Shown piece by piece: positions 11,590 to 38,894 of a DNA stretch of 64,000 nt (position 1 is its first letter; each line of letters starts with the position of its first letter). Under the pieces are notes generated by a model. That model was not told where the DNA came from and made no database searches. It saw only the letters and a list, made by a program, of their open reading frames with translations. The stretch lies in the NCBI GenBank assembly GCA_017415715.1, contig JAFQFD010000046.1:1-64000 (forward strand), written 5' to 3'. The position numbers and the translations under genes are program-made. The stretch comes from Bacteroidales bacterium (GTDB taxonomy: Bacteria; Bacteroidota; Bacteroidia; Bacteroidales; UBA932).

Positions 11590-13296
11590 ATGAGGAGAGT
11601 GATTTTTTCTGTTTTGTTTCTCGTGATGTGGGGGATTGCCGCGGCGCAGGAAGGCGGCATGGAGGCCATCATGAAGATGGCCGGCGCAGTGAGCGCTGAG
11701 GAGATGGATTCTTATGAAGTGGAGAGACTTTCTGACTTTCTTGAGCATCCATTGAAGATCAATCTGGTGTCTTCGTCAAGACTTTCGTCATCGGGGCTGT
11801 TGACACGCTATCAGGTCGCATCCCTTATGGATTATCGGGCGAGGCATGGCAATGTGATGTCGCTTGCCGAGCTTGCCGCCGTGGACGGCTTTGGCGAGGA
11901 CTATGTCGCCCGCCTGGCCCCTTTCGTTTCTCTGGAGAGTCTGTCGCTCGGGCTGATGAAAGAACCGGTCAGAAATGACCTGGCTGTGCGCGGAGCGTTC
12001 AAGATGAATGACGGCAATGACTGGAATGCCGGTCTGAAGTACAGGCTGGAAGCAAGCGGATTCTCCATGTCGCTGGCTGCCAACAGATCGTATGGGAGCG
12101 CTGACTCCAAGCCTTCAGACTATGCAGGCTCTGTCGGCTATGATTTCAGGAAAGTCCGAGGAAAAGTGCTTCTGGGGGATTTCAACGCCCGTTTCGGGCA
12201 AGGATTGGTACTATGGAACGGAGCATTCATAAATAGTCTTTCGACTCCTTCTGCATTCATGAAGAAACCGTCCGGTCTTTCGCGCAGCTGGTCGTATACG
12301 GGTGGGGCGGCGCTGACCGGGGCTGCGGCGGAGGTCGGCGTGGAAGGTTTCACCTTCAGCGCCGTCCTCGCGGCCCCGGGCGTCAAGGACGCCGCCCGCC
12401 GCCCCGACAAGGTCCGCCTGATGCCCGCAGCCAACATCGCGTGGTTGTGCCGTCACGGGCAGGTCTCCGTGACGCATATGGCTGAGATATCCGGGTTTCG
12501 TGCCAATGATGAGGTGCAGACCAGAATCCCGGTGATGAAGACCTCGGCTGACGCCGCCTTCTGTGTCAGAGGTGTCAATATATATGGAGAATCGGCATAT
12601 GACTGGGTGGAGAGGAATGTCGATGTGCTTGCGGGAACCGACTTCAAGGCAGGGGAGGATGTGAGACTTGCCGCATTATGCAGATATTTCCCTGATGAAC
12701 TTTATGGAACGGCATTCAGCGGAGCATTCCGGTCTGGAACCTTCTCGGTCGATGCCGTATATTATCCTGTCCCGAAAGATGCCTCTGTCAAGCATAGTAT
12801 CCAGGTAAAGACTCAGGTCGACTGGAGCTGGACATTGGGACAATCTTTCACGATCCGCATGAGAGCGTCCGAGAGGTTCAGGACATGGGGGAATATGTTC
12901 CGTTCAGAGATTCGCGGAGACTTTGCCTATGCTTCCGGACCATTCGTTATGACAATGCGTCTGAATGCACTTCATTGTGACAAAATCGCCCTTGCAGGTT
13001 ATCTGGAACAGGGTTATAAGACCGACAGGTTCAGCGTATATACTCGTCAGACCATTTTTAAAGTCGATGACTGGGATGACAGGATATATGTCTATGAACG
13101 CGATGCTCCCGGCTCTTTCAACGTTCCTGCCCTATACGGCCGAGGCTGGTCTGCGAGCCTTGTCGCATCGGCGAAGATCGCCTCGCTCCTGCGCCTCTAC
13201 GCCCGGGCATCCTACACAGGCTACCACCTCATGCCGCCAGCAAAAAGAAAGCCCGGCAAAGCCGAGCTTAAATTGCAGATGGTGTTCAGGTTCTGA
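11590..13296 (+). CDS. Secreted helix-hairpin-helix protein, probable outer-membrane beta barrel
   Basis: A 568-residue protein with a clear signal peptide (MRRVIFSVLFLVMWGIAAAQ). Residues about 45-115 contain ComEA-like helix-hairpin-helix repeats (LEHPLKINL, LAAVDGFGEDYVARL). The rest is rich in alternating aromatic/polar beta strands (GKVLLGDFNARFGQGLVLWN, SFTIRMRASERFRTWGNMF) and ends in Phe (LQMVFRF), the usual C-terminal signature of outer-membrane barrels. Proteins with this layout are common in Bacteroidales and have no settled function; DNA uptake by analogy with ComEA is only a suggestion. It converges with the transglycosylase gene, 3 bases apart. Confidence 0.8.
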   Translation: MRRVIFSVLFLVMWGIAAAQEGGMEAIMKMAGAVSAEEMDSYEVERLSDFLEHPLKINLVSSSRLSSSGLLTRYQVASLMDYRARHGNVMSLAELAAVDGFGEDYVARLAPFVSLESLSLGLMKEPVRNDLAVRGAFKMNDGNDWNAGLKYRLEASGFSMSLAANRSYGSADSKPSDYAGSVGYDFRKVRGKVLLGDFNARFGQGLVLWNGAFINSLSTPSAFMKKPSGLSRSWSYTGGAALTGAAAEVGVEGFTFSAVLAAPGVKDAARRPDKVRLMPAANIAWLCRHGQVSVTHMAEISGFRANDEVQTRIPVMKTSADAAFCVRGVNIYGESAYDWVERNVDVLAGTDFKAGEDVRLAALCRYFPDELYGTAFSGAFRSGTFSVDAVYYPVPKDASVKHSIQVKTQVDWSWTLGQSFTIRMRASERFRTWGNMFRSEIRGDFAYASGPFVMTMRLNALHCDKIALAGYLEQGYKTDRFSVYTRQTIFKVDDWDDRIYVYERDAPGSFNVPALYGRGWSASLVASAKIASLLRLYARASYTGYHLMPPAKRKPGKAELKLQMVFRF

Positions 13297-13299
13297 GCC

Positions 13300-14919
13300 T
13301 TACTTCTTATGGATCACGAGCTTCTGACCGACCTTTATCATGGTGCCGGTCAGACCGTTCCATTTCTTCAGGTCATTGACGGTCACTCCGTATTTTTCAG
13401 CGATCTTGCCGAGGTTGTCTCCGCTCTTGACCGTGTATGTCACTTTTTCGCCTGACTGTGTGGTCGACGATGATGACGAGCTGGTCGATGATGACGACGA
13501 GCCTGACGAAGAAGGAACAACGCCGCCTCTATATATCCTAAGTCTCTGTCCGATCCTTATGTTGTTGCTGGTGAGACCATTCCATTTCTTGATCTGCGCT
13601 ACGCTCACGCGGTATTTTCCGGCTATCTTGCCGAGGTAGTCTCCGCTCTTGACCTTGTACCAGATCAGTTCTCCGTCTCCGCCATCGATGATCTTCTTGA
13701 TGGTAGTAGGATTGAAGTATTCTTCGGCCTTGTGTCTGTAGATGGTGTCCTGCTTCTCTATGAATGCGTTTGAGTATTCGATAGGGATCCTGAGGATGTA
13801 TTCTCTGCTGTGTCCCGGGATGATCTCGTGGCGGTACTGAGGATTGAGGTTCTTCAACTCTTCCAAGGGCGCTCCTGTAAGCTCGCTGACCTGCTTGAGA
13901 TGCAGCTGCTTGTTGATGCGGAATGTGTCTACGGCCACTGGCATGCCCACATCGGCAGGCTTGATGCCGTGCTCTTTATAATAATTGAGTGCATAGAGTG
14001 CTCCGACAAACGCGGGACCATAGCTCCTGGTCTCACGCGGCAGGTATGGCCAGATGTCCCAGAAGCCTCTCTTTCCGTCTGCGCGGCGGATGGCCTTGCG
14101 GACATTGCCGGCGCCGCAGTTGTACGATGCTATCGCGAGGTTCCAGTCTCCGAATATCTCATATGCATCCTGGAGGTACTGAGCAGCAGCTTCTGCGGAC
14201 TTCACAGGGTCGAGGCGTTCGTCGACAAATGAATCGATATGGAGTCCATATACCTTTGCGGTATTATACATGAATTGCCACATGCCCTTGGCTCCGGCAC
14301 GTGAAACCGCCAGCGGATTCATTCCAGACTCGATGATCGTCATAGCTTTGAGCTCCAGCGGGAGATCGTACGAGTCGAAGATCTCCTCGAATATAGGCAT
14401 GTAGTATCTGGACAGTCCGAGCATGTGAGACATCTTGTTCGGCATCTTTTCGGAGTACAGGATGATGTATTTCTTTACCGTCTCATTGTATGGAAGCGTG
14501 ATGAATGAATTCATCTTCTTGAGCCTCTCTATATACACGTCGTCAGGCACGTTTGACTCGAATCTTACCGAATCAACTTCCTCGAAGTCCACCTCATAGG
14601 CGGCCATCTGATGGGCATACCATATGTTCAGAAGGCTGTCTGATACTTCTGCGGTATATTCCATAGACTCGAATGAATCCCTGCTCCTCTCCACGCTCTC
14701 GCCATACGCTTCGAGCATCTCGATCTCGAGACTGTCTGTGACGTCTGCCTCCATCCTGTATCTGTCGAGCTCCATCTGCAGTGAGTCTATCTTCTCCTGC
14801 AGCCTCTTGTTCTCTTCCTCGATCTTCTTCCTGCTGTCGTTCTTCGGTCCTGCATATGCCGGAGATGAGGCAATAAAAACAGCCGCGAGGGCGACTGTGA
14901 TTGTTCTGAATATTTTCAT
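13300..14919 (-). CDS. Membrane-bound lytic murein transglycosylase with two LysM domains (MltD-like)
   Basis: A 539-residue exported protein that should cleave peptidoglycan glycan strands with 1,6-anhydro product formation. Order: signal peptide (to about 23, ending AYAG), coiled coil (30-90), SLT domain with catalytic Glu197 (TIIESGMNP), AGAKGMWQFM and AIASYNCGAGN, then LysM 1 (about 415-465), a Ser-rich linker of about 20 residues and LysM 2 (about 493-538, VKSGDNLGKIAEKYG). It is the last gene of the parA-parB operon, 7 bases after the DUF5683 gene. Confidence 0.9.
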   Translation of the reverse strand: MKIFRTITVALAAVFIASSPAYAGPKNDSRKKIEEENKRLQEKIDSLQMELDRYRMEADVTDSLEIEMLEAYGESVERSRDSFESMEYTAEVSDSLLNIWYAHQMAAYEVDFEEVDSVRFESNVPDDVYIERLKKMNSFITLPYNETVKKYIILYSEKMPNKMSHMLGLSRYYMPIFEEIFDSYDLPLELKAMTIIESGMNPLAVSRAGAKGMWQFMYNTAKVYGLHIDSFVDERLDPVKSAEAAAQYLQDAYEIFGDWNLAIASYNCGAGNVRKAIRRADGKRGFWDIWPYLPRETRSYGPAFVGALYALNYYKEHGIKPADVGMPVAVDTFRINKQLHLKQVSELTGAPLEELKNLNPQYRHEIIPGHSREYILRIPIEYSNAFIEKQDTIYRHKAEEYFNPTTIKKIIDGGDGELIWYKVKSGDYLGKIAGKYRVSVAQIKKWNGLTSNNIRIGQRLRIYRGGVVPSSSGSSSSSTSSSSSSTTQSGEKVTYTVKSGDNLGKIAEKYGVTVNDLKKWNGLTGTMIKVGQKLVIHKK

Positions 14920-14926
14920 TTAAAGT

Positions 14927-15925
14927 TTAAAATGTTAGGCCTACACGCAGTCCGAAGGCGTTTTCGCCTGCCACTGCATTTGAAGCATAGGCATTGTTAG
15001 GAGGTATCACCGCCGGCTCGATATTCATCGAAATGTCGTCAGTCACCTCGAAATCATGCATATATGAGAAGACGTTCGCATCCATGACCTGCAGTACATA
15101 TACGAGCGCGGTCGCTACGATGGAATAGTCTCTGTATCTTCTGTATACGTCTCTGTACCACTTCGCCGTCTCTCCGCTTATCGGGCCGTCGTATGGCACG
15201 TCCGGATTGGTGGCCTGGTTGTGTATCGCCTTGAACCTCTTATAGTTGCGATTGTTCAACAGGAGGCAATGGGTTGATACCATCAGGCCTCCCCAGTAGA
15301 TCGGCACCTTGTAGAGCTCTCCGTTGTATATCTGTCCGAGTCCGGGAAGGAGGATCGAGTATAGTGTGGCTTTGCCCGGATGCGGATATTTGTCTGTCTC
15401 ATAGCTGACCACTCCGTCAAGCAATGTGCCCCAGTACATCAGACCGGCTCCGAACATAAGCCATGTTCCTGTCTTCTTGTATTTCTCGTTGACAAAAGGA
15501 GCGAGCTCGGGATATGCCGTTCCGTGCTCGTCTTCATACGCGGTCTTGTTGATCTCCCACGTCGCATATGCCTTCTTCTGCTTGTTGTACTGGTGGAGGT
15601 AATATCCGCCGGAACCGGCAAAAGCTCCTATGCCTCCGTACACTATCGGCAGCTTCCAGTATTGCTTGTTGTATATCTGTGCTGTTCCGGGGAGTACGAC
15701 AGAGCCGGCGAACATTGTGCCGGGCTTCAGCTCGTTCTTATGTGCCAGACCTCCGAAATATTCCTTGAAAGAAAAAAGCTTTTCTGTCGTGTCTGCAGGG
15801 TTGTATGTTCCCGGCTCGTTGTAGTTCTGTGTAAATGCCTCTTCCTTGAACTGTGCGTGACCGCCTGTCGCGAAGGCCAGAAGCCCCACGACAACAGTCA
15901 GTATGTATTTCGACAGTCTCTGCAT
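14927..15925 (-). CDS. DUF5683 domain membrane protein
   Basis: A 332-residue protein with a signal peptide (ends FATGGHAQ) and several hydrophobic segments of the kind GSVVLPGTAQIYNKQYWKLP and LLPGLGQIYNGELYKVPIY; the repeated PG-QIYN-Y-K-PI pattern is the DUF5683 hallmark. The function is unknown. In Bacteroidota it is commonly found just after parB and before a MltD-like transglycosylase, as here (6 bases after parB). Confidence 0.82.
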   Translation of the reverse strand: MQRLSKYILTVVVGLLAFATGGHAQFKEEAFTQNYNEPGTYNPADTTEKLFSFKEYFGGLAHKNELKPGTMFAGSVVLPGTAQIYNKQYWKLPIVYGGIGAFAGSGGYYLHQYNKQKKAYATWEINKTAYEDEHGTAYPELAPFVNEKYKKTGTWLMFGAGLMYWGTLLDGVVSYETDKYPHPGKATLYSILLPGLGQIYNGELYKVPIYWGGLMVSTHCLLLNNRNYKRFKAIHNQATNPDVPYDGPISGETAKWYRDVYRRYRDYSIVATALVYVLQVMDANVFSYMHDFEVTDDISMNIEPAVIPPNNAYASNAVAGENAFGLRVGLTF

Positions 15926-28327: not shown

Positions 28328-28616
28328 GAAATTGATATTCAATATAGTCACCGTCATTATGGCGGTGACTATAGTTATAGGGGCCCTATATGTGATGTCT
28401 AATCATCTGGGGCTTGTGGAAGGCTATGACTTCGGAGGAGGAGCATACTATTATGTAGACATTCCAAATTTTGACCAGGTCCTTCCGGAGGATGCCTACC
28501 AGGCAAAGACGCCTGTATGGGTGCATGTCGTGCTCTTCATCGCATGGGGCTGGCTCATGTGGCGCCTCTGGCTATGGGTGGACAGCCGATCTAAAAAAGG
28601 TCCGGACGGTCAGTGA
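28314..28616 (+). CDS. Small membrane protein coupled to the YeiH-type exporter
   Basis: A 100-residue protein with two hydrophobic helices (about 8-28 and 68-88) and a polar loop rich in Gly/Tyr (GGGAYYYVDIPNFD). It overlaps the exporter gene by 14 bases, so the two are translated together; it is probably an accessory subunit. I do not recognise a named family. Its end overlaps the convergent GDPD gene by 26 bases. Confidence 0.75.
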   Translation: MKISKKLIFNIVTVIMAVTIVIGALYVMSNHLGLVEGYDFGGGAYYYVDIPNFDQVLPEDAYQAKTPVWVHVVLFIAWGWLMWRLWLWVDSRSKKGPDGQ

Positions 28617-29283
28617 TGATGCCGTCCACATTGTCTGCGTAAAACTGTTCAGGGGTCTGGAGTGTCCAGACCTTTATTTCTTTCCCTCTGGCATGCATCT
28701 TCTCTACGAAGCGTCTTGTGACCAGTCCGAGGCGGAATATGTTGTATGATGCTATATATGGCTTCTCGTCAACTTCTTTCCAGCAGAAAGGGCGTATGAA
28801 GAGAAGCTTCTCAAGCCTTATCGAAGGATCCATCGCGTGAAATCTCTCCAGCACGATGTCGTTGAACGACTGGACCGTCACTCTTCCGTATGCTCCGCAT
28901 TCGTGAATTATGTCCAGACATGCCTTTTCGAGGCCGTCATCCCTGTCGTCGTCCCTCTTTATCTCGAGAAGAATCTCAGCCCGTGAACCAATGAACGTCA
29001 GGACCTCTCTGAGTGTCGGAATCTGGTCAGGAGTTGTCTTCCCGTCGCGGTCTTTGACGTGGAGCGACTTGATCTCCTGAAGTGTCATGTCTTCGATCAT
29101 ACCCCTGCCGTCGGTCGTCCTGTCCACATCCGGGTCGTGACATACCACGACTTCTCCGTCCTTTGTCAGATGGACGTCGATCTCTACCATGTCCGCTCTG
29201 CTGCAGGACAACCCCTTCTCTATGCATGAGAGAGTGTTCTCGCATCCGAGACCAGCCCCTCCTCTGTGAGCTATTATTCTCAT
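28591..29283 (-). CDS. Glycerophosphodiester phosphodiesterase family protein
   Basis: A 230-residue GDPD TIM barrel hydrolysing glycerophosphodiesters to glycerol-3-phosphate and alcohol. Catalytic features: RIIAHRGG, CENTLSCIEKG, EIDVHLTKDGEVVVCHD (metal-binding Glu/Asp and His) and the later LLEIKRD. There is no signal peptide, so it is cytosolic. Its ATG overlaps the stop of the large STAND gene (ATGA, 29280-29283), so it is translationally coupled to it; whether this is functional or only compact packing is open. Confidence 0.9.
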   Translation of the reverse strand: MRIIAHRGGAGLGCENTLSCIEKGLSCSRADMVEIDVHLTKDGEVVVCHDPDVDRTTDGRGMIEDMTLQEIKSLHVKDRDGKTTPDQIPTLREVLTFIGSRAEILLEIKRDDDRDDGLEKACLDIIHECGAYGRVTVQSFNDIVLERFHAMDPSIRLEKLLFIRPFCWKEVDEKPYIASYNIFRLGLVTRRFVEKMHARGKEIKVWTLQTPEQFYADNVDGIITDRPDLF

Positions 29284-32200
29284 AATTTCACTTTAAAGAG
29301 ATGCCTGAACAAAACTCTTACCACTTTGTCGAACCACTCGAAGCTGTCTTTTGACTCCGGTGCCAGACACATAGCCTCGTAGGCGAATTCGTCCACGGCC
29401 TCCTCGTGGATCAACGACCAGATGAGGAAGTTGCCGAACTTGTGGGTGAACAGGTCGGAGAGCCTTTCTCCGCCAGGATTGTAGCTCAGCAGCTCGTCCT
29501 TGTATTTCGGAATTCCCGGGAACGGAAGGCCGGAGAGGTCCTTCTTCAGGAAAGTGTTCACCTCGTCAGGGAAGTAGTTCTTAGCTGTGCCGAGCACCTT
29601 GCCGATGAGTGTTACGATGTCCTCGCTGAACTCCTCCAGCATCTTTTCGCTGTCTATCCTGCTCATTACGGAAAGGAGCAGGTCAAGTGCCGTGTATATG
29701 TATCCCGAGTCTGTGACCAGCTCGGAAATGTTCTCTATCAGGTGTACGAGAAGCTCGGTGTCGCGAGCCTCTATCGCGTCGTTCAGAAGTCTTCTGAACA
29801 ATGGTGCGTTGGCGCAGTCAGGATCCTGGACGTCTCCGTGGCGGCACGCCCATACCATTGCGTACCAGGTCATTACGTTTCTCTTGTAAAGCTGGCGAGG
29901 GTTGGCCTTGTGGCTATTTCTGCCCTTGAAGTAGCCCTTGCACTTGAGAGTCCATTCCTCGCACCACTCGGACAGCATTTCCCAGGCGTAATCAGGATAT
30001 GTATCCATCTTCAGTCCGAGCTGGTAGAGGACGTAGATCAGAGACATCTGCGAGTAGTCGAACCATTCGGTATCCCTGATGCCTCCTTCCCTGAAGTTCT
30101 TCAGGATAGGGAATACCTTGTCCCATGAGCATATGCCCATGATGATGAGGATCCTCTCGAAGGCGAAGTATGTGAAGCTGTCACCTGTGCGATAAGCTGA
30201 GATCACCTTGTCCTGGAAAGGTCCGAAGTCGGGAGCATCTTCCTTGCTGTGTTTCGCGTCCGGAGCGAAGTAACGGGAGTGCTGGAAGATGAACTGCATG
30301 GCGGTCTTGAGGTCTTCGCGGCACCATGATCCGTCCTCGCTCTTGAGAGGGATCACCGAGTCTTCCCAGAAGGTCTGGTATTCGATCACATTGTTTACGT
30401 AATCGGACTGGAATGTAAGCTGTTTCCTGAGAACCATCTGGAAGAAAGGAAGCAGCATCCTGATGAGCGAGTAGTTCGCTGTCAGGTGCTTGAAAACTTC
30501 TATGGTCTCACCCAGCATTCCGCCGACCCTGGCCCTGTCTTCCTCCTTTCCGGAAATCAGGGCGTCTATAATCAGCAGCACGTTGAGCCTTGTGCCGACC
30601 TCCAGGTCACTCATTATCGACTTCCTTCTGCGTTCCCCGAACGGTATGGCGAGCAGCGGAGTCGTGCAGATTTCCTTGTACATCCTGTTCACGATCTGCT
30701 CTGAGAGGTTTTCCTTGAGAGGAGTGCCACTGAGGGTTGTCTTCTTGTTGGAGACGTAGTATGCATACATGCAGACGTCGTTCTTGACTTCCGTGACAGG
30801 GTCGAGAAGCAGTTTCCACAGCAGCGTGAACGGATCCTGTGAGTATATGCCTTCGTTGTGGTAGTCTGTGAGCAGGACTCCGTTGAGGAGGGTCACCGAG
30901 GCGAGGGAGCGCTGCCTGATCAGCGGAGCGATGACAGGCGAGAGCTCCTTGTGCCTTGCGATTGTCGCCTCGTCTGCCTTGTTGGATTCGATTTTCTTTG
31001 TGACTGTGTTGTATTCAGGAATGATTGCAGTACATTCTTCGCCTGTCCTCTCAATGAGCTCTCCGAGCAGAGAGAAAATCTCCGTCTCATAGTTTTCGCG
31101 GACCATGATGTTCATTACATCCGTGGCCAGTGACATGATCTCGAAGCCGCTGTCCTCGAGGTTGGACAATGCTATGATAGTATCGGGCTTGCCTGTGGTC
31201 AGGTAGTCCATTATCAGCACGTTACGCATTGTGCCCATGAAGACTTCGTTCGCAGTCGCCTTCTCTATCGTGTCTACGAATGTCTGGCAGGTGATGTTGT
31301 CTGCTCCCTGCGCGTTCCTTTCAAAGTAGAGAAGCGCGAGCATATACTCGAGGAATCGCTCGTAGATGAACTGGATCTTTTCATTGTCGACCAGTCTGAG
31401 GATCGGTCGCTCAGGTTTGTTGAGGAGCTCGGCGAATGCCACGCTGTAGCCGTCCTTCTTGAAGATGAGGGATGCGGCCTTGTGCAGAGGCGAGCCAGGG
31501 TCTTCGGATGCAGCCTGAAGGTCTGTCATCGTGATGGAGTCCGTTGCGTTTCCGGCAAGGTACGAATCGAGGATGTGTCCGGCTATTTCCCGCAGGATCT
31601 CAACCTGTCTGTTTCCCGCATATGACACTGAAATGTCCTGCACCATCTTGTGGAAAAGGGCCAGTGATGTGAACTCCCTCATGGCTTCCGGAAAATACTG
31701 GCCGAGGTAGTTGGTGCATGACATCTTCAGCACGAGAGGGTCCTTCATCCTGATGGTGATGCCTCGCGGCAGGAGGTCGAACGGGGTCTTCATCTGGAAG
31801 AGGTCTCCATATATATGGTATGCCGTCTTTACTTCATTGTCTGTGAATCCCTTGACTGCGGTGTTCTCCTCTTCTCCGGAGTTGTAGAACAGCGACTGGT
31901 CCTGCTTGGAAGTCTCCGGCATGAGAAGGTTCTTCCAGGTGTAGTTGCGACAGGTGAAGAGTATCTTGAAGTGTCCGTATCCGGGTTCTATGAATATCTT
32001 ATAAAGGTCTCTGTAAAGCATCAGAGGACCGTCTGCGTCTGAAGTGAGGCCAGGATATTCTATACACTCGTTTATCGCATCAATGAATATCAGCACGTCT
32101 TTTCCTCTTGACTCTGCTGCATTCGCCAGCGACTGCACAAGGCCAGCCACAGGCTTGTGCATGGCCCATCCGAAGGAGGACTTCAGCCTGTTTTCAAGCG

Positions 32201-33323
32201 TGATGTCAGCGAATTCCGAGCCTGAGAAGATCATGACACCCTCGTCAGTCTCGGAGAATGTCTCTGTCCAGTAGCATAGCTGCGTGGTCTTTCCCTGTCC
32301 GGCTTCTCCCAGGAGAGGGAAGATGCATGAGTCTGACCCGAGGAATCCGTTGAGTTCCCTTGTGAGGCTCTCTCTCTCCACGAACAGTTCTCGGTTGTAT
32401 TTCTTCTCCGCATACAGTTTTGTCAGGAATGCGGATGTGTTCTCATGCAGAAGCCCTGTCCACTGCTCCCAGTTGAGGATCTTGCTTATGTCGAATGACG
32501 GCATGAGCTCCTGCATCCAGGCGTCGAACTCGGCGTTGCGGGAGTCTGTCGTCAGCGAAACTGCCTCTTCGTTTGATGAAATGTGAGCAGTGCTTTCATC
32601 CTTGAGCGTCTGGAATATATATATGTGTCTCTTCTCGTTGCAATATGCAAGAGGGTAGAGGTCAGTAAGCTTTCCGTCACAGCTGAAGTAGTAGTGCCCG
32701 TCCTTCAATGTGCCGTCGGCCGGCGCCGCTTCCGGACTGTGTCCGTTCAGCAGCAGCGTGCCGCCTCCCGGCACAGCTGCCTTGAACTCCATCTGCGCGA
32801 GCGGCAGCAGAGCCTCAGTGAACTCGAGCAGTCTGCCTTCGAGTGTCAGTACCACGTCTTTGTAGATGTCCTGCGACAGTGTGGTTCCGTGTCCTTTGTA
32901 GTCGTTTCTGATCTTGACAATGCTCTGCTCGCCCTTTCGGCCGAGGATGATATGCTTCTTCGGTGATATGACTTTGGAAAGCGACTGAGCCAGGGCGTTG
33001 TCAGGCAGCCTTGATGCCGCCAGCATGGTCAGCGGAGTCAGAATGTCGTTGGCCCAGTCTCCGAATGACAGAGGCCTCTTGTTGTCGATCTTTCCTATTG
33101 CCTTGACTATGGCGGGGTCATTCTTGAACATCTCGCTTTCTGCCTTCATGAAGCCCAGGAGCACGATCGAGAGGAATTGGCATGATGTCTCGAAGAAGTC
33201 AAGCATATAGTTCATGGCGCTTTGCCAGTTCATCTTTTCCGTATTGTCCTTGAATCCCTGCAGCGGATGCGCAAGAGAATATGGAAGTGATGTTGTGCCT
33301 TTGGCGAGAATTTCAGTTTCCAT
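29280..33323 (-). CDS. Large HEPN-STAND (NACHT-like) NTPase with helical repeats; candidate immune sensor
   Basis: A 1347-residue cytosolic protein. The N-terminal helical domain ends in IRNDYKGHGTTLS, an Rx5H motif (R139-N140, H145) as in HEPN ribonucleases. A small beta-rich linker (about 180-280) follows. The P-loop NTPase has Walker A GEAGQGKTT (339-347), Walker B VLIFIDAINE (Asp415, Glu419) and the sensor-like ILFTCRN (about 454-460), the pattern of STAND/NACHT ATPases. The remaining 750 residues are predicted helical, HEAT-like. Effector-NTPase-sensor order matches Avs/bNACHT antiphage proteins. The start at 33323 follows a TAAATTTG box at 33356-33349. I infer, but cannot show, a defence role. 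Confidence 0.75.
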   Translation of the reverse strand: METEILAKGTTSLPYSLAHPLQGFKDNTEKMNWQSAMNYMLDFFETSCQFLSIVLLGFMKAESEMFKNDPAIVKAIGKIDNKRPLSFGDWANDILTPLTMLAASRLPDNALAQSLSKVISPKKHIILGRKGEQSIVKIRNDYKGHGTTLSQDIYKDVVLTLEGRLLEFTEALLPLAQMEFKAAVPGGGTLLLNGHSPEAAPADGTLKDGHYYFSCDGKLTDLYPLAYCNEKRHIYIFQTLKDESTAHISSNEEAVSLTTDSRNAEFDAWMQELMPSFDISKILNWEQWTGLLHENTSAFLTKLYAEKKYNRELFVERESLTRELNGFLGSDSCIFPLLGEAGQGKTTQLCYWTETFSETDEGVMIFSGSEFADITLENRLKSSFGWAMHKPVAGLVQSLANAAESRGKDVLIFIDAINECIEYPGLTSDADGPLMLYRDLYKIFIEPGYGHFKILFTCRNYTWKNLLMPETSKQDQSLFYNSGEEENTAVKGFTDNEVKTAYHIYGDLFQMKTPFDLLPRGITIRMKDPLVLKMSCTNYLGQYFPEAMREFTSLALFHKMVQDISVSYAGNRQVEILREIAGHILDSYLAGNATDSITMTDLQAASEDPGSPLHKAASLIFKKDGYSVAFAELLNKPERPILRLVDNEKIQFIYERFLEYMLALLYFERNAQGADNITCQTFVDTIEKATANEVFMGTMRNVLIMDYLTTGKPDTIIALSNLEDSGFEIMSLATDVMNIMVRENYETEIFSLLGELIERTGEECTAIIPEYNTVTKKIESNKADEATIARHKELSPVIAPLIRQRSLASVTLLNGVLLTDYHNEGIYSQDPFTLLWKLLLDPVTEVKNDVCMYAYYVSNKKTTLSGTPLKENLSEQIVNRMYKEICTTPLLAIPFGERRRKSIMSDLEVGTRLNVLLIIDALISGKEEDRARVGGMLGETIEVFKHLTANYSLIRMLLPFFQMVLRKQLTFQSDYVNNVIEYQTFWEDSVIPLKSEDGSWCREDLKTAMQFIFQHSRYFAPDAKHSKEDAPDFGPFQDKVISAYRTGDSFTYFAFERILIIMGICSWDKVFPILKNFREGGIRDTEWFDYSQMSLIYVLYQLGLKMDTYPDYAWEMLSEWCEEWTLKCKGYFKGRNSHKANPRQLYKRNVMTWYAMVWACRHGDVQDPDCANAPLFRRLLNDAIEARDTELLVHLIENISELVTDSGYIYTALDLLLSVMSRIDSEKMLEEFSEDIVTLIGKVLGTAKNYFPDEVNTFLKKDLSGLPFPGIPKYKDELLSYNPGGERLSDLFTHKFGNFLIWSLIHEEAVDEFAYEAMCLAPESKDSFEWFDKVVRVLFRHLFKVKL

Positions 33324-33338
33324 AGTGATTGTTTTGAA

Positions 33339-33377
33339 CTGTAACATACAAATTTACAATAAATTTGCGTGTTACAG
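33339..33377. promoter_or_regulatory. 39-bp palindrome containing divergent -7 boxes
   Basis: Arms CTGTAACA (33339-33346) with TGTTACAG (33370-33377) and CAAATTTA (33349-33356) with TAAATTTG (33360-33367) are both perfect and share one centre at 33358; only two positions per arm and the centre break symmetry (16 of 18 pairs). Each inner arm is a TAnnTTTG -7 box, one for each divergent gene. A further plus-strand promoter is possible: TTTG 33364-33367, 21 bases, TAATTTTG 33389-33396. This looks like a shared operator or mirror promoter. Confidence 0.75.
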
Positions 33378-33412
33378 GTTATAATGATTAATTTTGTGAA
33401 AAAATAAGAAGT

Positions 33413-34636
33413 ATGCAGTATAAAGATACAGCGTTTCTCTGCGGATACTTTTCCGTGAAGACCGGAAATCCGGCAGCGATAATCGCATCTCAGGGTGACT
33501 TCTGGACCCCGGTCGAGTATGATGACAAGGAACTTTCATGGGCGAAGGATTTCTATTATCCTGAGTTCGCAGAATTCATGATGTCGGATGTAAAGACCTA
33601 CAGTCATGCATATGATCTGGGCTTTTCGCTTACATTGAGGGACGGCAGGGAGCATGAAGTGCACCTCGATGAACTTCGTACATATCTTTTCCCTTTCGGG
33701 ATCGTGATGTACTCTGTAAGGGTAAGCCAACAGTCGGAACAGGTCCAGGACATGCTGGACGCCTTGTTCATGATGAGAGGCGTATGCAGTCTCAACCAGG
33801 AAGCTTCCAAAGATTATATCACCCTGGCTCTTGATCCCCTGATCGCATTGAACAAGGCGGCGGGCAATTCCGGAGATTTCCGTGCCCTCATGGAATGCGG
33901 AAACAAGCTGAAGATCTTCCATACTCTGTCATGTGCGGAAAGACCTGCGGATGATGCGTCATATGACGCGCTGCTGTACGGAGGCGGCACTTTGCTGGTG
34001 TACAAGGAGAATGACCCGAAAGGCTTTTCGAAGGAATATTATGACAGCATCATGTCGGGAAGCCGCGTGTCCGTCTTCAACAACTGGAAGTCGCTGTCGC
34101 TTCTTGACACATATACCATAGTGGCTCATGATGTGCCGGACAATATGCTTGAGTTCTGGAACAAGGAATATTTCGGCAAGATGTATATGTATGCGCTGTA
34201 CCGCAAGTTCTTCCTTTTCCGAATCAACGGAGACTTCCGTGGCGAGATCAAGGATGTCTCAGATGTCCGCAAGGATCTGACTGCGTTCGAGAAGGACTAC
34301 ACTTTCCCTAAGGTGTCATACAACTTCCTGCCTGAGATTCTGATGGATTCTATGGAAAAGGGACTCGATGTGGAGCAGGAGACTGCTAAGATCGCAGAGA
34401 TGATCAACCGTGAGAATGCCCGCAGGGAAGCGGAGACGGGAGATAAGATGAACCTTTTCCTCGGAGTGATCACCTGTCTGACACTTTTCTCGGCGATATG
34501 GGACTTTGCCTGCCTGATGGACGGAGTCTTCGAGTTCAGCACCAACATCGGAACCGCGACAGGCATCAGGGCCTGCGCCATGGCGCTCATATCCATCATC
34601 TGCATGGCGGCGATATTTGTCAGGAGAAAAAAATAA
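33413..34636 (+). CDS. Unknown protein with CorA-like two-TM C-terminus, divergent partner of the STAND gene
   Basis: A 407-residue protein with a soluble N-terminal 300 residues of mixed alpha/beta character, then a charged helix (QETAKIAEMINRENARREAE, about 320-340) leading into two membrane segments (347-368 and 384-403) joined by a short loop and ending in RRKK. This is the membrane layout of CorA-type channels, but no GMN motif is seen after the first helix, so magnesium transport is not supported. It might be a membrane effector or sensor. It shares a palindromic promoter region with the STAND gene. Confidence 0.7.
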   Translation: MQYKDTAFLCGYFSVKTGNPAAIIASQGDFWTPVEYDDKELSWAKDFYYPEFAEFMMSDVKTYSHAYDLGFSLTLRDGREHEVHLDELRTYLFPFGIVMYSVRVSQQSEQVQDMLDALFMMRGVCSLNQEASKDYITLALDPLIALNKAAGNSGDFRALMECGNKLKIFHTLSCAERPADDASYDALLYGGGTLLVYKENDPKGFSKEYYDSIMSGSRVSVFNNWKSLSLLDTYTIVAHDVPDNMLEFWNKEYFGKMYMYALYRKFFLFRINGDFRGEIKDVSDVRKDLTAFEKDYTFPKVSYNFLPEILMDSMEKGLDVEQETAKIAEMINRENARREAETGDKMNLFLGVITCLTLFSAIWDFACLMDGVFEFSTNIGTATGIRACAMALISIICMAAIFVRRKK

Positions 34637-35095: not shown

Positions 35096-36628
35096 ATGGA
35101 TAACTATGGACATAGGGGAACGAAGATAGCCAGGAATACGCTGATGCTGTATGTCAGGATGCTTGTCCTCATGCTCGTCGGGCTATACACCTCGCGTGTT
35201 GTCCTGGGAGCCCTCGGAGAGAACGACTTCGGCGTATACAATGTCGTTGGAGGCGTCGTGTCCATGTTCACCATAATATCCGGGGCGCTGAATTCCGCAG
35301 TCTCGAGATTCATAACCTTCGAGATGGGCAAGGGCGCTGACGCGCAGCTCAATAAAGTTTATTCTACAGCGGTGACCATCCAGCTGATCCTTGCGGCCGT
35401 CGTGGTCCTCCTTGCGGAGCCCCTCGGCCTGTGGTTCATAGACAACAAGATGACCATAGACCCGTCGAGGATCCCTGCAGCACGCTGGGTGCTGCATTTC
35501 TCCCTCCTGGCATTCGTGATAAACCTCATGAGCGTGCCGCAGATGGCTTCAATTACCGCTCATGAACATATGTCCGCATACGCATACATAGGCATCCTTG
35601 ACGGCCTTCTGAGGCTTGGAGTGGCATTCCTCATACTCCATTCTCCTATAGACAGACTTATATATTATGCGGCCCTGATGGCCGGTGTCGTGCTGATTGT
35701 GCGTCTGGCCTATGGCCTGTATTGCCGTCTGCATTTCGAAGAATGCCGGTATCGTCCTGTGTTCGACAGGCCTCTGATCAAGGAGATGTTCTCCTTTGCG
35801 GGCTGGAACTTCATAGGAGTGACCTCGGGAGTGTTGAGGGACCATGGAGGAAACATCCTGGTAAATCTGTTCTCGGGACCGGCTGTAAATGCTGCAAGAG
35901 GCGTTGCCGTGCAGCTTAACGGAGCGGTGCAGGGATTCGTGACCAACTTCATGACAGCCGTCAATCCGCAGATAACAAAGTCGTATGCGGCAGGGGAGAA
36001 GGAATACATGTTCTCTCTGGTGAGAAGGTCATCCAGAATGTCTTTCTTCCTTCTTTTCCTCATAGCCCTTCCGGTGATCTTCAATGCGGATTACCTGTTG
36101 TCAATATGGCTCAAGGAGGTGCCGGAGCATTCATCGCTCTTCGTGCAGCTCTTCCTGATTTTTGCCCTGAGCGAGTCGCTCTCCAATCCTATGATAACAG
36201 CGATGCTGGCGACAGGAAACATACGTAACTATCAGCTTGTCGTGGGTGGAATCCAACTGCTGAACCTGCCAGTGTCGTATGTATGCCTCAGGATGGGAGC
36301 GATCCCTGAAGTTACTGTAATCGTAGCAATCATAATATCACAGATATGCATGTGGGCGCGCCTGCTGATGCTCAGCAAGGCGACCGGATTCCCTGTGCTG
36401 CCTTTCCTTGAGGAAGTGTACTTCAGTGTCCTCTTCAAGGTGGTATGCGGCTCGCTGGTCGTGCCTCTGATTCTTGAGGCAGCCAAGCCGGCTGGATTCG
36501 TGGGTTTCCTGATCAGCGCATCGGTGTGCGTGCTGTGGTCTATGCTTGTGATCATGACGCTCGGGCTGCAGAGTGATGAGCGCAAGTGGCTGGTAAACAA
36601 GATTAAAGAGAAATTTGTCAGGAAATGA
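35096..36628 (+). CDS. Oligosaccharide flippase (Wzx/MOP family)
   Basis: A 510-residue polytopic protein with about 12-14 hydrophobic helices. The N-terminal RNTLMLYVRMLVLMLVGLYTS, GENDFGVYNVVGGVVSMF and FSGPAVNAARGVAVQLNGAV are typical of Bacteroidales MATE-like polysaccharide export flippases. It would move lipid-linked repeat units across the inner membrane. It heads a five-gene overlapping operon (35096-41105) with sugar-modifying and transferase genes. Confidence 0.9.
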   Translation: MDNYGHRGTKIARNTLMLYVRMLVLMLVGLYTSRVVLGALGENDFGVYNVVGGVVSMFTIISGALNSAVSRFITFEMGKGADAQLNKVYSTAVTIQLILAAVVVLLAEPLGLWFIDNKMTIDPSRIPAARWVLHFSLLAFVINLMSVPQMASITAHEHMSAYAYIGILDGLLRLGVAFLILHSPIDRLIYYAALMAGVVLIVRLAYGLYCRLHFEECRYRPVFDRPLIKEMFSFAGWNFIGVTSGVLRDHGGNILVNLFSGPAVNAARGVAVQLNGAVQGFVTNFMTAVNPQITKSYAAGEKEYMFSLVRRSSRMSFFLLFLIALPVIFNADYLLSIWLKEVPEHSSLFVQLFLIFALSESLSNPMITAMLATGNIRNYQLVVGGIQLLNLPVSYVCLRMGAIPEVTVIVAIIISQICMWARLLMLSKATGFPVLPFLEEVYFSVLFKVVCGSLVVPLILEAAKPAGFVGFLISASVCVLWSMLVIMTLGLQSDERKWLVNKIKEKFVRK

Positions 36629-37764
36629 TAAGGATATCGGATAAGTCTCTGTGCTGCGGCTGCACTGCCTGCGCCACTGCGTGTCCCGCGCAGTGCATAG
36701 TCATGCGCCGCGACCGCGAGGGATTTGACTATCCGGTAGCCAATCCGGACCTGTGCATCGGCTGCGGCAAGTGTGAGAAAGTGTGTCCGATGCTGAATCC
36801 TCCTGCTGCCTCGGCTCCTGTTGAGGTCCTGGCGGCGAGGTCCGGGGAGCATCTGGCCGGATCGTCTTCCGGTGGAGTGTTCCCGGAGCTGGCAAAGTCT
36901 GTGATCGAGGATGGGGGAGTTGTCTTCGGAGCGGTCTTCGAGAGTGACCATAAGGTTGCTCATGCCGAGGCTTCGGAATTGTCGGGGATTGAGCCGATGA
37001 GAGGCTCGAAATATGCCCAGAGCGACCTGTATTCGGCTTTTGAGGATGTAAATCAGTATCTGACGGATGGAAAGAAGGTTCTTTTTACAGGCACCCCATG
37101 CCAGGTTGCGGGCCTGAATAATTATTTGGGCAGCAATACTGAAGGATTGATGACTGTAGACTTTGCATGTCATGGCGTGCCGAGCCCGGGTCTTTGGGAG
37201 AAATATGTGAAGGCGCTCGAGGCCCGAAGCGGCGGAAGGATCAGGTCCCTGTCCTTCAGGGACAAGTCCCGCAGCTGGAGACATTACTGCTTCAGACATG
37301 ATGACGTCAGTGTGGAATATGTTGATGACCCGTATATGGCATTGTTCGTCCAGGACATGTCGTTGAGGCCATCTTGTTATAAATGTCCTTTCCGTGCAGG
37401 CAGGAAGGCGTCAGACCTGACGCTTGCCGACCTGTGGAGCGTTGCCGAGGCGGCTCCTGCATTCAATGATGACAGGGGCGCGTCAGCTGTGTTTGTCAAT
37501 ACGGCAAAGGGCAAGGCTCTGGTGCACTCTGTGAGTATGCAGTCTGTCGCTGTAAGTTCGGAGGCGGCGATGCGTGACAACGGAGGATATTCTGACCCGG
37601 CTGCGGTTCCGGAGAGGCGGGAAGAGTTCTTCAAGGGAGTCCACAGTGCATCGGACTTGATTGCATATATGAAAGGATTCGTTGTCAGAAGGCCGCTGCA
37701 TCAGAGAATATACAGAAAGGTCCGCAGGTTCCTTTCTGACATTAAGAAGAGAATTGTACGATGA
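36625..37764 (+). CDS. Coenzyme F420 hydrogenase/dehydrogenase beta-subunit-type 4Fe-4S protein
   Basis: A 379-residue protein with two 4Fe-4S sites at the N-terminus (CCGCTACATACPAQC and CIGCGKCEKVCP), then a FrhB-like N- and C-domain (SSGGVFPELAKSV, GTPCQVAGLNNYL, CHGVPSPGLWEKY, YKCPFRAGRKASDLTLADLW). In polysaccharide clusters this family occurs with pyruvyl transferases, as here, and probably performs a redox modification of sugar or lipid precursors; the reaction is not known. It overlaps both neighbours by 4 bases. Confidence 0.88.
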   Translation: MIRISDKSLCCGCTACATACPAQCIVMRRDREGFDYPVANPDLCIGCGKCEKVCPMLNPPAASAPVEVLAARSGEHLAGSSSGGVFPELAKSVIEDGGVVFGAVFESDHKVAHAEASELSGIEPMRGSKYAQSDLYSAFEDVNQYLTDGKKVLFTGTPCQVAGLNNYLGSNTEGLMTVDFACHGVPSPGLWEKYVKALEARSGGRIRSLSFRDKSRSWRHYCFRHDDVSVEYVDDPYMALFVQDMSLRPSCYKCPFRAGRKASDLTLADLWSVAEAAPAFNDDRGASAVFVNTAKGKALVHSVSMQSVAVSSEAAMRDNGGYSDPAAVPERREEFFKGVHSASDLIAYMKGFVVRRPLHQRIYRKVRRFLSDIKKRIVR

Positions 37765-38894
37765 GGATAGCTATAGTGACACTGCCTCTGCACACAAATT
37801 ACGGAGGCATTCTTCAGGCCTATGCGCTGAAGACATACTTGGAGTCCATGGGACATCAGGCCACGGTTCTGGACCGTGAGGTCAAGATGCCGCTGCCGGC
37901 CCTGTGGAAGGCCCCATTTGTCTATGCCAAGCGGGCTTTGCAGTGTCTGACCAAGGGTGCGGCAGGACCGGAAGTGTTCCGCGAGATCAGATTCCGCAGA
38001 GAGTTTCCGGCTGTTTCGGCCAATACTCAGAGGTTTGTCGACGAGATGATAGCGCCTCGTATGATCAAGAGATTCAAGGATGTCCGAGAGGACGAATACG
38101 ATGCATTCATAGTCGGCAGCGACCAGGTGTGGCGTCCGCGTTATTTCGGCCGTATAGAGGATGCGTTCCTGGATTTTGCCAGGGACTGGGATGTCCTGAG
38201 AGTGGCATACGCCGCGTCTTTCGGCACGGACCAGCTTGAATATGAATACATGCAGGTGCAGGAATGCGCGTCTCTGCTGGAGAAGTTCAACGGAGTGTCT
38301 GTCCGCGAGGATGTCGGAGTGCAGATGTGCCAGGAGTGGTTTGACTGTGAGACTGCAGTGCAGGTGCTTGATCCGGTGATGCTTGTGGATGCCTCTGTGT
38401 ATAAGGCCATGGCCGCTTCAGTGAAGGAGCATCCGGCAGAAGGCAAGCTTGTGACATATATACTGGACAAGTCGAAGGAGAAGGCTAATGTCCTTGATTT
38501 CATGGTGCGCGTTTCGGGACTTCAGGTTCATGACCTCTCTCCGGTGACAGAAAGGTCTCTGCCTTTGGCGGAGCGTGTCGTGCCGCCTCTGGAGGCCTGG
38601 CTGGCGGGTTTTGCCGATGCGGGATTTGTAGTTACGGATTCGTTCCACGGATGCGTGCTGTCTATCCTGCTCCATAAGCCTTTCGTGGCTGTGGGCAATT
38701 CGATGAGAGGAATGGCGAGGCTGCAGTCGCTGCTGGTTCGATTCGGCCTGGACATGAGGCTGGTGCACGGCATAGATCCGGAGGATGACGGGGAGTTCTT
38801 CCTGTCGCAGCCGGACTGGGACGCTGTCGATGCGGTGCTGGCAGAAGAAAGAATCAAATCCGGAAGCTTCCTGAGTGAGGCTCTCCGCAAATGA
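37761..38894 (+). CDS. Polysaccharide pyruvyl transferase family protein
   Basis: A 377-residue protein beginning MRIAIVTLPLHTNYGGILQ, the classic PS_pyruv_trans start, with IVGSDQVWRPRYF, SVREDVGVQ and the C-terminal VTDSFHGCVLSILLHKPFV. Family members transfer pyruvate from PEP to sugars in exopolysaccharide, adding negative charge; others have related roles. It is coupled to the Fe-S gene upstream and lies 7 bases before a GT2. Confidence 0.9.
   Translation: MRIAIVTLPLHTNYGGILQAYALKTYLESMGHQATVLDREVKMPLPALWKAPFVYAKRALQCLTKGAAGPEVFREIRFRREFPAVSANTQRFVDEMIAPRMIKRFKDVREDEYDAFIVGSDQVWRPRYFGRIEDAFLDFARDWDVLRVAYAASFGTDQLEYEYMQVQECASLLEKFNGVSVREDVGVQMCQEWFDCETAVQVLDPVMLVDASVYKAMAASVKEHPAEGKLVTYILDKSKEKANVLDFMVRVSGLQVHDLSPVTERSLPLAERVVPPLEAWLAGFADAGFVVTDSFHGCVLSILLHKPFVAVGNSMRGMARLQSLLVRFGLDMRLVHGIDPEDDGEFFLSQPDWDAVDAVLAEERIKSGSFLSEALRK

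Follow-up and report, generated by a model that had tools for sequence, protein, structure and literature searches.

The 64,000-nucleotide stretch of DNA analysed here (the window) comes from a Bacteroidales bacterium whose assembly comprises 2.58 Mb in 56 contigs and is 86% complete. It carries three adjacent genes (Table 1), encoding a large STAND NTPase with an N-terminal HEPN-type motif, a glycerophosphodiester phosphodiesterase (GDPD) and a CorA-like membrane protein. The three stay together as a conserved unit, with motifs maintained across related loci and purifying selection acting on each gene; the CorA-like protein is similar to the CorA models of PADLOC. The initial annotation of this DNA had proposed an NLR-like immune operon of the STAND and GDPD genes. 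Its interval, 28591..33323, left out the third gene, which starts divergently 65 bases from the longer STAND open reading frame (ORF). A TAnnTTTG-type box, a consensus that we assume here, lies on the minus strand at 33349-33356 and would place the ATG at 33347 about at or before the transcription start; the ATG at 33323 is therefore favoured as the probable start of the STAND gene. Residue numbers below follow the longer ORF.

Table 1. Coordinates of the three-gene module and its sequence features in the window.
Feature	Position	Strand	Basis
HEPN-STAND (NACHT) protein, predicted, 1347 amino acids	29280..33323	-	ATG at 33323 of the initial annotation
Longest ORF of the STAND gene, 1355 amino acids from the first ATG	29280-33347	-	ORF list
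GDPD, 230 amino acids, without signal peptide in the window copy	28591..29283	-	ORF, PF03009, alignment
ATGA, 4-base overlap of GDPD start and STAND stop	29280..29283	-	
CorA-like protein, 407 amino acids, third module gene, divergent; two C-terminal hydrophobic helices (about 345-373, 379-406)	33413..34636	+	
Divergent promoter region; imperfect palindrome at about 33339-33377, TAnnTTTG-type boxes on both strands	33324..33412	.	
RN-DYKG-H, HEPN-type Rx4-6H motif, R147-H153 (1355-residue numbering)	32889..32909	-	41/41 rows, kept in L084
Walker A GEAGQGKT, residues 347-354	32286..32309	-	alignment
Walker B-like DAINE, residues 423-427	32067..32081	-	alignment

The large protein was compared with its homologues and with domain models. 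Residues G347, G350, Q351, G352, K353 and T354 of Walker A were kept in all 40 alignment rows with a letter at these positions, as were D423, N426 and E427 of the Walker B-like DAxNE (40/40), which bears out the NACHT-like Walker motifs noted initially. Searched against Pfam, the window protein gave a sub-threshold match only and no match to NACHT, and PADLOC Avs2 models matched its NTPase stretch (best 7.8e-9, covering residues 344-677; none of the Avs2 matches extends beyond 304-701). Locus L084, from another family of the order, encodes a protein 29% identical to that of the window along its whole length, in which SAM and NACHT (1.2e-10) pass the Pfam cut-offs. Because this full-length homologue passes the NACHT cut-off, comparison of the sequences settles the predicted NTPase type as NACHT. 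The protein has no transmembrane stretch by hydropathy. A C-terminal tail of repeats, also part of the initial annotation, was not borne out: a direct-repeat search of the DNA gave only short scattered matches, and the sole hint of repeats was a weak profile match to a pentatricopeptide-repeat protein (E 0.017).

In the N-terminal domain, R147, N148, Y150, G152 and H153 (RNxYxGH) were invariant in 41/41 aligned rows, fragments and near-copies included, and the motif of L084 reads RNTYLGH. These residues contain the R139/H145 pair for which an RNx5H-type HEPN motif had been proposed; in the longer numbering the pair is R147/H153 and the spacing RN-x4-H. According to the main text of PMC3710099, the HEPN signature is Rx4-6H with N, D or H after the R, and HEPN-STAND fusions are described there as conflict proteins. 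The N-terminal domain fits this signature and is thus a candidate HEPN domain, with a predicted HEPN fold and putative ribonuclease (RNase) activity. Comparison of the N-domain by hhalign with seven sequences of Abi_C, one HEPN family (nine loci picked by motif pattern, two lacking the motif dropped), was negative, its probability of 0.8% being no better than the 0.9% of a decoy comparison with the module's own linker. Apea-HEPN yielded two matches in 80 genomes, a set that was not used for comparison. A PADLOC search of 31 N-domains returned a single match, to Csn2 at 0.011.

Membership of the second gene product in the GDPD family is certain from its sequence: the window protein matches PF03009 at 2.3e-37 (129.9 bits vs a gathering score of 23.6), and the best of its solved relatives in the PDB is 2pz0 (3.6e-28). 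The catalytic HRG, EN, E/D/H, HD and K positions were kept in 38-40 of 40 rows, which include three GDPDs not beside a STAND gene on their contig, one distant GDPD and one fragment. In 36 of 42 GDPD rows the first strand is preceded by a hydrophobic stretch that reads as signal peptide, lipobox or anchor, a feature missed in the initial annotation; ten of these rows show a lipobox pattern. The rows were read by hydropathy; near-copies are among them, as are the three GDPDs away from STAND and several N-termini that are short and ambiguous. The GDPD copies of the window, L018 and L052 lack any signal, their start falling just ahead of the first strand; this amounts to two changes on the tree so counted. 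In most lineages, then, the GDPD is predicted to lie outside the cytoplasm and the STAND protein inside, with the CorA-like protein between them. Locus L044 holds a second GDPD gene (15091-15882) behind its CorA-like gene.

The window CorA-like protein matched two PADLOC CorA models (best 8.1e-6 over residues 243-383), and these models matched 20/30 and 19/30 members of the family (at up to 0.01; best 5e-8). We take them to stand for the accessory CorA of type III CRISPR systems. Pfam CorA was matched weakly by one of the 30 members (0.036), and PDC-M19A of PADLOC, also weakly, by six (best 0.0011). Hydropathy gave two C-terminal hydrophobic helices in 24/34 rows and one in 10/34. GMN, the motif of the CorA family, was not seen when the window protein was read by eye. 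The gene was recognised as belonging to the set because in L020 (genome G087) it is co-directional with the STAND gene and overlaps its start by 1 base, in the order CorA-like - STAND - GDPD. CorA-like genes also occur without STAND, in G114, beside a 1513-residue S1-domain protein, and, in the phylum draw, in G191. At L081 (3991-10411) the CorA-like gene stands with a relative of a 191-residue protein gene of L084 (30% identity, 9e-27) and a 1513-residue S1-domain protein, with no STAND present; further partners of the CorA-like protein thus seem to exist. At L078 (9355-15577) it is found beside a VKYAYxAD-repeat protein, a presumed DUF4407-like membrane protein and a presumed OmpA-like protein.

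Scanning GTDB genomes with a six-member STAND alignment returned 40 loci, a lower bound since the scan relies on two peptide patterns. Their titles name Bacteroidales or groups within the order (Cryptobacteroides, Alistipes/Rikenellaceae, Paludibacteraceae, Muribaculaceae, Bacteroidaceae, and Phocaeicola plebeius DSM 17135, the last being L065). Forty-one loci were tabulated. Where at least 2.5 kb was available on both sides (28 loci), GDPD was present in 28/28 and both CorA-like and the complete set in 26/28; clustered at 90% STAND identity, these loci gave 19 clusters, 18 with all three genes and one lacking CorA-like. With at least 1 kb downstream, GDPD was kept in 33 of 34 loci (exception: L019, genome G032), and the STAND/GDPD overlap measured 1 or 4 bases in 21/35 rows. 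The ATGA coupling noted initially is present in the window as described, and coupling to GDPD is conserved across loci. With at least 1.5 kb upstream, CorA-like was found in 32 of 36 loci; the four without it are L033, L057, L049 and L063, the contigs of the last two being cut off inside STAND. Conservation over the tabulated loci rules out a chance or mis-annotated pairing, and the random neighbours that would have spoken against an operon were not observed for the module itself. Beyond it neighbours vary between loci, and there is no fourth conserved gene: no other neighbour family occurred in more than 6/35 loci, and the one reaching that number was a mixed ABC-ATPase cluster. Duplicates L026, L027, L031 and L032 (the same loci as L018-L021) were dropped from the alignment and locus counts and kept in the hydropathy rows; L007, the STAND of G021, is in the alignment only, and its near-copy L043 from the same contig is in the tables.

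The position of the CorA-like gene differs between loci. It is divergent upstream, as in the window, co-directional upstream (L020, L041, L046, L051, L054, L084), downstream (L044, L059), or downstream and opposite (L047), giving four gene orders of the same set. The tree requires six changes of state for this position, counting the loss of the gene from L033/L057 as one; the tree was a quick one with several long branches flagged, so that six is approximate. Pairwise distances of STAND, CorA-like and GDPD correlate (r = 0.95, 0.91 and 0.89; 0/2000 permutations as high), a result that vertical descent alone would also give. Left out of the correlations and the conservation profile were L018, L029, L030, L045 and the fragments L043, L049, L053, L054, L055 and L063, and L044 was represented in the correlations by its second GDPD. 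L084 (genome G723) keeps all three genes at 29% (STAND), 35% (GDPD) and 25% (CorA-like) identity (hhalign probability 100); no second copy of the L084 type was found in 11 genomes of one family of G723. At L084 (3815-11002) a SAM-HEPN-NACHT protein is encoded, an extra gene for 191 amino acids lies between CorA-like and STAND, and one strand is used throughout. Near the same module (12988-14424) is a methyltransferase gene whose N-terminal part shows, by eye, an R-x4-AHG HEPN-like motif. At L059 (3-8946), and also at L044, L049 and L063, STAND is immediately preceded by genes of the kinase-AAA, M48 peptidase, PP2C and multi-AAA kinds; the kinase-AAA/M48/PP2C genes were tested by Pfam in L059 and L063, and the kinase-AAA proteins of L044 and L049 are 83% and 67% identical to that of L059. 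They are a possible regulatory layer.

Among 151 genomes of the genus, many of them incomplete, STAND was found in 6, CorA-like in 5 and GDPD (E at most 1e-20) in 8. CorA-like was present in four of the six STAND genomes; the remaining two, G106 and G021, have at most 0.2 kb of contig left upstream of STAND. The genes co-occur (STAND-CorA, p 3.6e-6; STAND-GDPD, p 5.4e-7). At the level of the order, STAND was found in 3/363 genomes at 1e-30, and in the phylum in 6/395 at 1e-10, where only the window's own match is full-length and the other five cover the NTPase range. These counts support a patchy, non-housekeeping distribution. A comparison of the window with G066 (L018) gave ratios of non-synonymous to synonymous substitution rates (dN/dS) of 0.062 for STAND, 0.068 for GDPD (the signal-less copy) and 0.065 for CorA-like; against G032 the values were 0.074 for STAND and 0.095 for CorA-like. 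With dN/dS of 0.06-0.12 over the three genes, the module is under purifying selection, and all three, the signal-less GDPD included, are therefore functioning genes in the window's lineage. Between the window and G066, the synonymous rate (dS) of the module was 0.55-0.61, roughly double the values for the nearby trpS (0.30) and YeiH (0.25) genes.

Several known systems share parts of this arrangement. Like Avs proteins (PADLOC Avs2), the large protein has a STAND NTPase core, preceded by an effector-like domain and followed by a long C-terminal region; it differs in its HEPN motif and in its CorA-like and GDPD partner genes, and the match is confined to the NTPase stretch. Avs proteins recognise phage terminase or portal. 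Membership in Avs2 itself was rejected, as the NCBIfam model (NF041813) scored 26.8 bits vs a cut-off of 1000. With bNACHT and other bacterial NLR-related proteins, as we take them to be built, the module shares the NACHT domain, whereas its two conserved partner genes, its HEPN motif before NACHT and, in L084, a SAM domain before both set it apart. With the HEPN-STAND fusions of PMC3710099 it has in common a HEPN signature at the N-terminus of a STAND ATPase; the main text of that paper names neither CorA nor a diesterase as partner. In a type III CRISPR system known from Bacteroides fragilis, the membrane effector is a CorA-family protein that lies beside the phosphodiesterase NrN, with SAM-AMP as signal (the relevant parts of PMC12255297). 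Our module resembles that pair in having a CorA-family membrane protein beside a phosphodiesterase; in contrast, reading of the ORFs beside the window module revealed no Cas gene, and the GDPD is not NrN and is mostly exported. GDPD is counted among lipid-modifying toxin domains in the part of PMC3482391 that treats PVC-SS-delivered toxins; there, too, it is a lipid-attacking weapon domain, but it forms the end of a delivered toxin (Cyanothece), whereas here it is a gene coupled to a STAND protein. From a different system, a pneumococcal GDPD mutation has been tied to phage resistance, with an effect on adsorption suggested (PMC4652380, in part), and the passages of PMC10975372 concerned name gdpD only as a resistance gene. 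No published description of the STAND/CorA-like/GDPD set was found among the papers listed in a search whose coverage excluded most subscription journals and preprints. 'GDPD' and 'CorA' are absent from the main texts of the DefensePredictor paper (PMC13092281) and of a paper on NTP-dependent conflict systems (PMC7159879), and in the portions of PMC10910872 available CorA and NACHT appear in figure legends only. The unit is best filed as a variant of the bacterial NLR-like/STAND systems with a putative membrane-lipid arm, its mechanism and its role in immunity being inferred.

We favour, with a probability of about 0.55, a three-component NLR-like cell-protection system of Bacteroidales that combines a HEPN-STAND sensor with a membrane arm. 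The cytoplasmic STAND ATPase would detect a danger signal through its long C-terminal region, and ATP-driven assembly would then switch on the N-terminal HEPN RNase-like domain and stop growth. The CorA-like two-helix protein of the inner membrane would be the membrane arm, acting as a channel or pore or tethering the sensor to the membrane. The GDPD may act at the envelope, cleaving glycerophosphodiester lipids or head groups either as a second effector or as a clean-up enzyme. A number of results weigh against this proposal. No Pfam HEPN family was found in any of 31 members, and neither Pfam nor PDB nor profile searches supported the HEPN fold. The C-terminal region is not hypervariable, its mean column identity being 0.28-0.65 per 50 residues vs 0.41-0.59 in the NTPase. 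Neither partner appears strictly needed: a profile search of the whole locus found no CorA-like gene in L033 and L057, and in G032 (L019) GDPD was not found while STAND and CorA-like are intact. No relative of STAND was detected in 50,697 phage records, 72,556 plasmids and viral contigs, nor one of CorA-like on plasmids or viral contigs, the viral contigs having been searched via two short peptide patterns in each case; the NTPase range alone of the L084 STAND matched on two Vibrio plasmids. Finally, among 122 near-neighbour genes searched against PADLOC without a control set, no family was matched by more than four at 1e-20. Of the checks that the initial annotation had named, co-occurrence of the genes was borne out, and enrichment in defence islands gave no clear signal; its candidate immune operon was supported in part, namely for the HEPN-type motif, the NACHT/STAND NTPase and the conserved GDPD coupling.

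Within the favoured proposal, anti-phage and membrane-damage readings are kept side by side. The module may, as a tentative possibility, be a trans-envelope NLR-like immune machine, in which phage entry or membrane breach is sensed and answered by RNA cleavage inside and by lipid attack or remodelling outside through the periplasm-facing hydrolase, with the CorA-like protein as inner-membrane channel. Patchy distribution, effector-type motifs, NLR-like architecture, CorA resemblance and GDPD as a weapon domain were counted in favour of defence. Alternatively, though we regard this as rather doubtful, CorA-like and an exported GDPD would monitor or repair the inner membrane under envelope damage or lipid stress, and the HEPN-STAND guard would halt growth on any breach, phage included. 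Such a response would account for the hydrophobic N-terminal stretch on most GDPDs, for the absence of a mobile carrier among the phages, plasmids and viral contigs searched, for a C-terminal region conserved as expected for a self ligand, and for the genes (kinase-AAA, M48 or PP2C) that immediately precede STAND in the four loci named above. It sits less well with a distribution as patchy as 3/363 genomes of the order, unusual for a general stress response, and with the missing GDPD signal in the window, L018 and L052.

That signal-less, predicted cytoplasmic GDPD of the window would instead suit a second-messenger logic like that of the type III CRISPR CorA, where STAND-HEPN or a host enzyme raises a signal gating the CorA-like protein and GDPD removes it, the role of NrN for SAM-AMP. 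The similarity to PADLOC CorA models points the same way, as does the finding, in the part of PMC12255297 concerned, that the CRISPR phosphodiesterase beside CorA is needed for immunity. We nevertheless consider this unlikely: Pfam names no nucleotide-synthesising domain in the module, most GDPDs carry a signal or anchor and so would face away from the cytoplasm, and the substrates of the family are glycerophosphodiesters. It is equally improbable that the GDPD is an ordinary periplasmic enzyme that became fixed beside the HEPN-STAND/CorA-like pair without contributing to what the pair does. Genomes without a STAND match do contain members of the same GDPD family (G031 and G091, both with signal peptides, and weakly G100), and G032 lacks the gene, but a bystander would hardly be expected beside STAND in 33/34 loci with short overlaps, through changes in the place of CorA-like and as far as L084, or to show a dN/dS of 0.068 in its signal-less copy.

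Many bacterial NLR-like proteins are pictured as a single chain with sensor and effector. Partners kept through repeated rearrangement suggest, for the three-component protection system favoured here, a multi-part machine at the inner membrane. If this proves true, lipid head-group hydrolysis would join the effectors of STAND immunity, and STAND proteins would be linked to CorA-like effectors known from CRISPR. The copy in the named strain Phocaeicola plebeius DSM 17135 would then offer a testable case in gut Bacteroidales.

The surroundings of the module were also inspected. The neighbour scan comprised 116 of 141 listed ORFs plus six from L084, 25 having been left out, mostly for size, some of them likely antisense. 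Among the families listed (25 of 32), PADLOC matches included mad3 (4), IetA, BrxH and DpdF (2 each), and there were single strong matches, for example PDC-S34 at 1.5e-111; a defence-island context is not clear. No clean empty site was found: 17 of 41 genomes had a YeiH match, and the six regions read contained YeiH and the following small gene only, with none of nine other queried window genes. The palindrome between the divergent genes beat 60/60 shuffles in the window, but L018 and L019, the closest relatives, do not retain it, and it was not taken for an operator. GC content is unremarkable, at 0.47-0.55 over 22-42 kb and 0.47-0.53 over the module. In three of 32 loci scanned (L046, L051, L065), the module has a tRNA gene no more than about 250 bases away. 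Next to the window module, at 35096-38894, a surface-polysaccharide region begins, with genes read as flippase-like and ferredoxin-like and one for a polysaccharide pyruvyl transferase.

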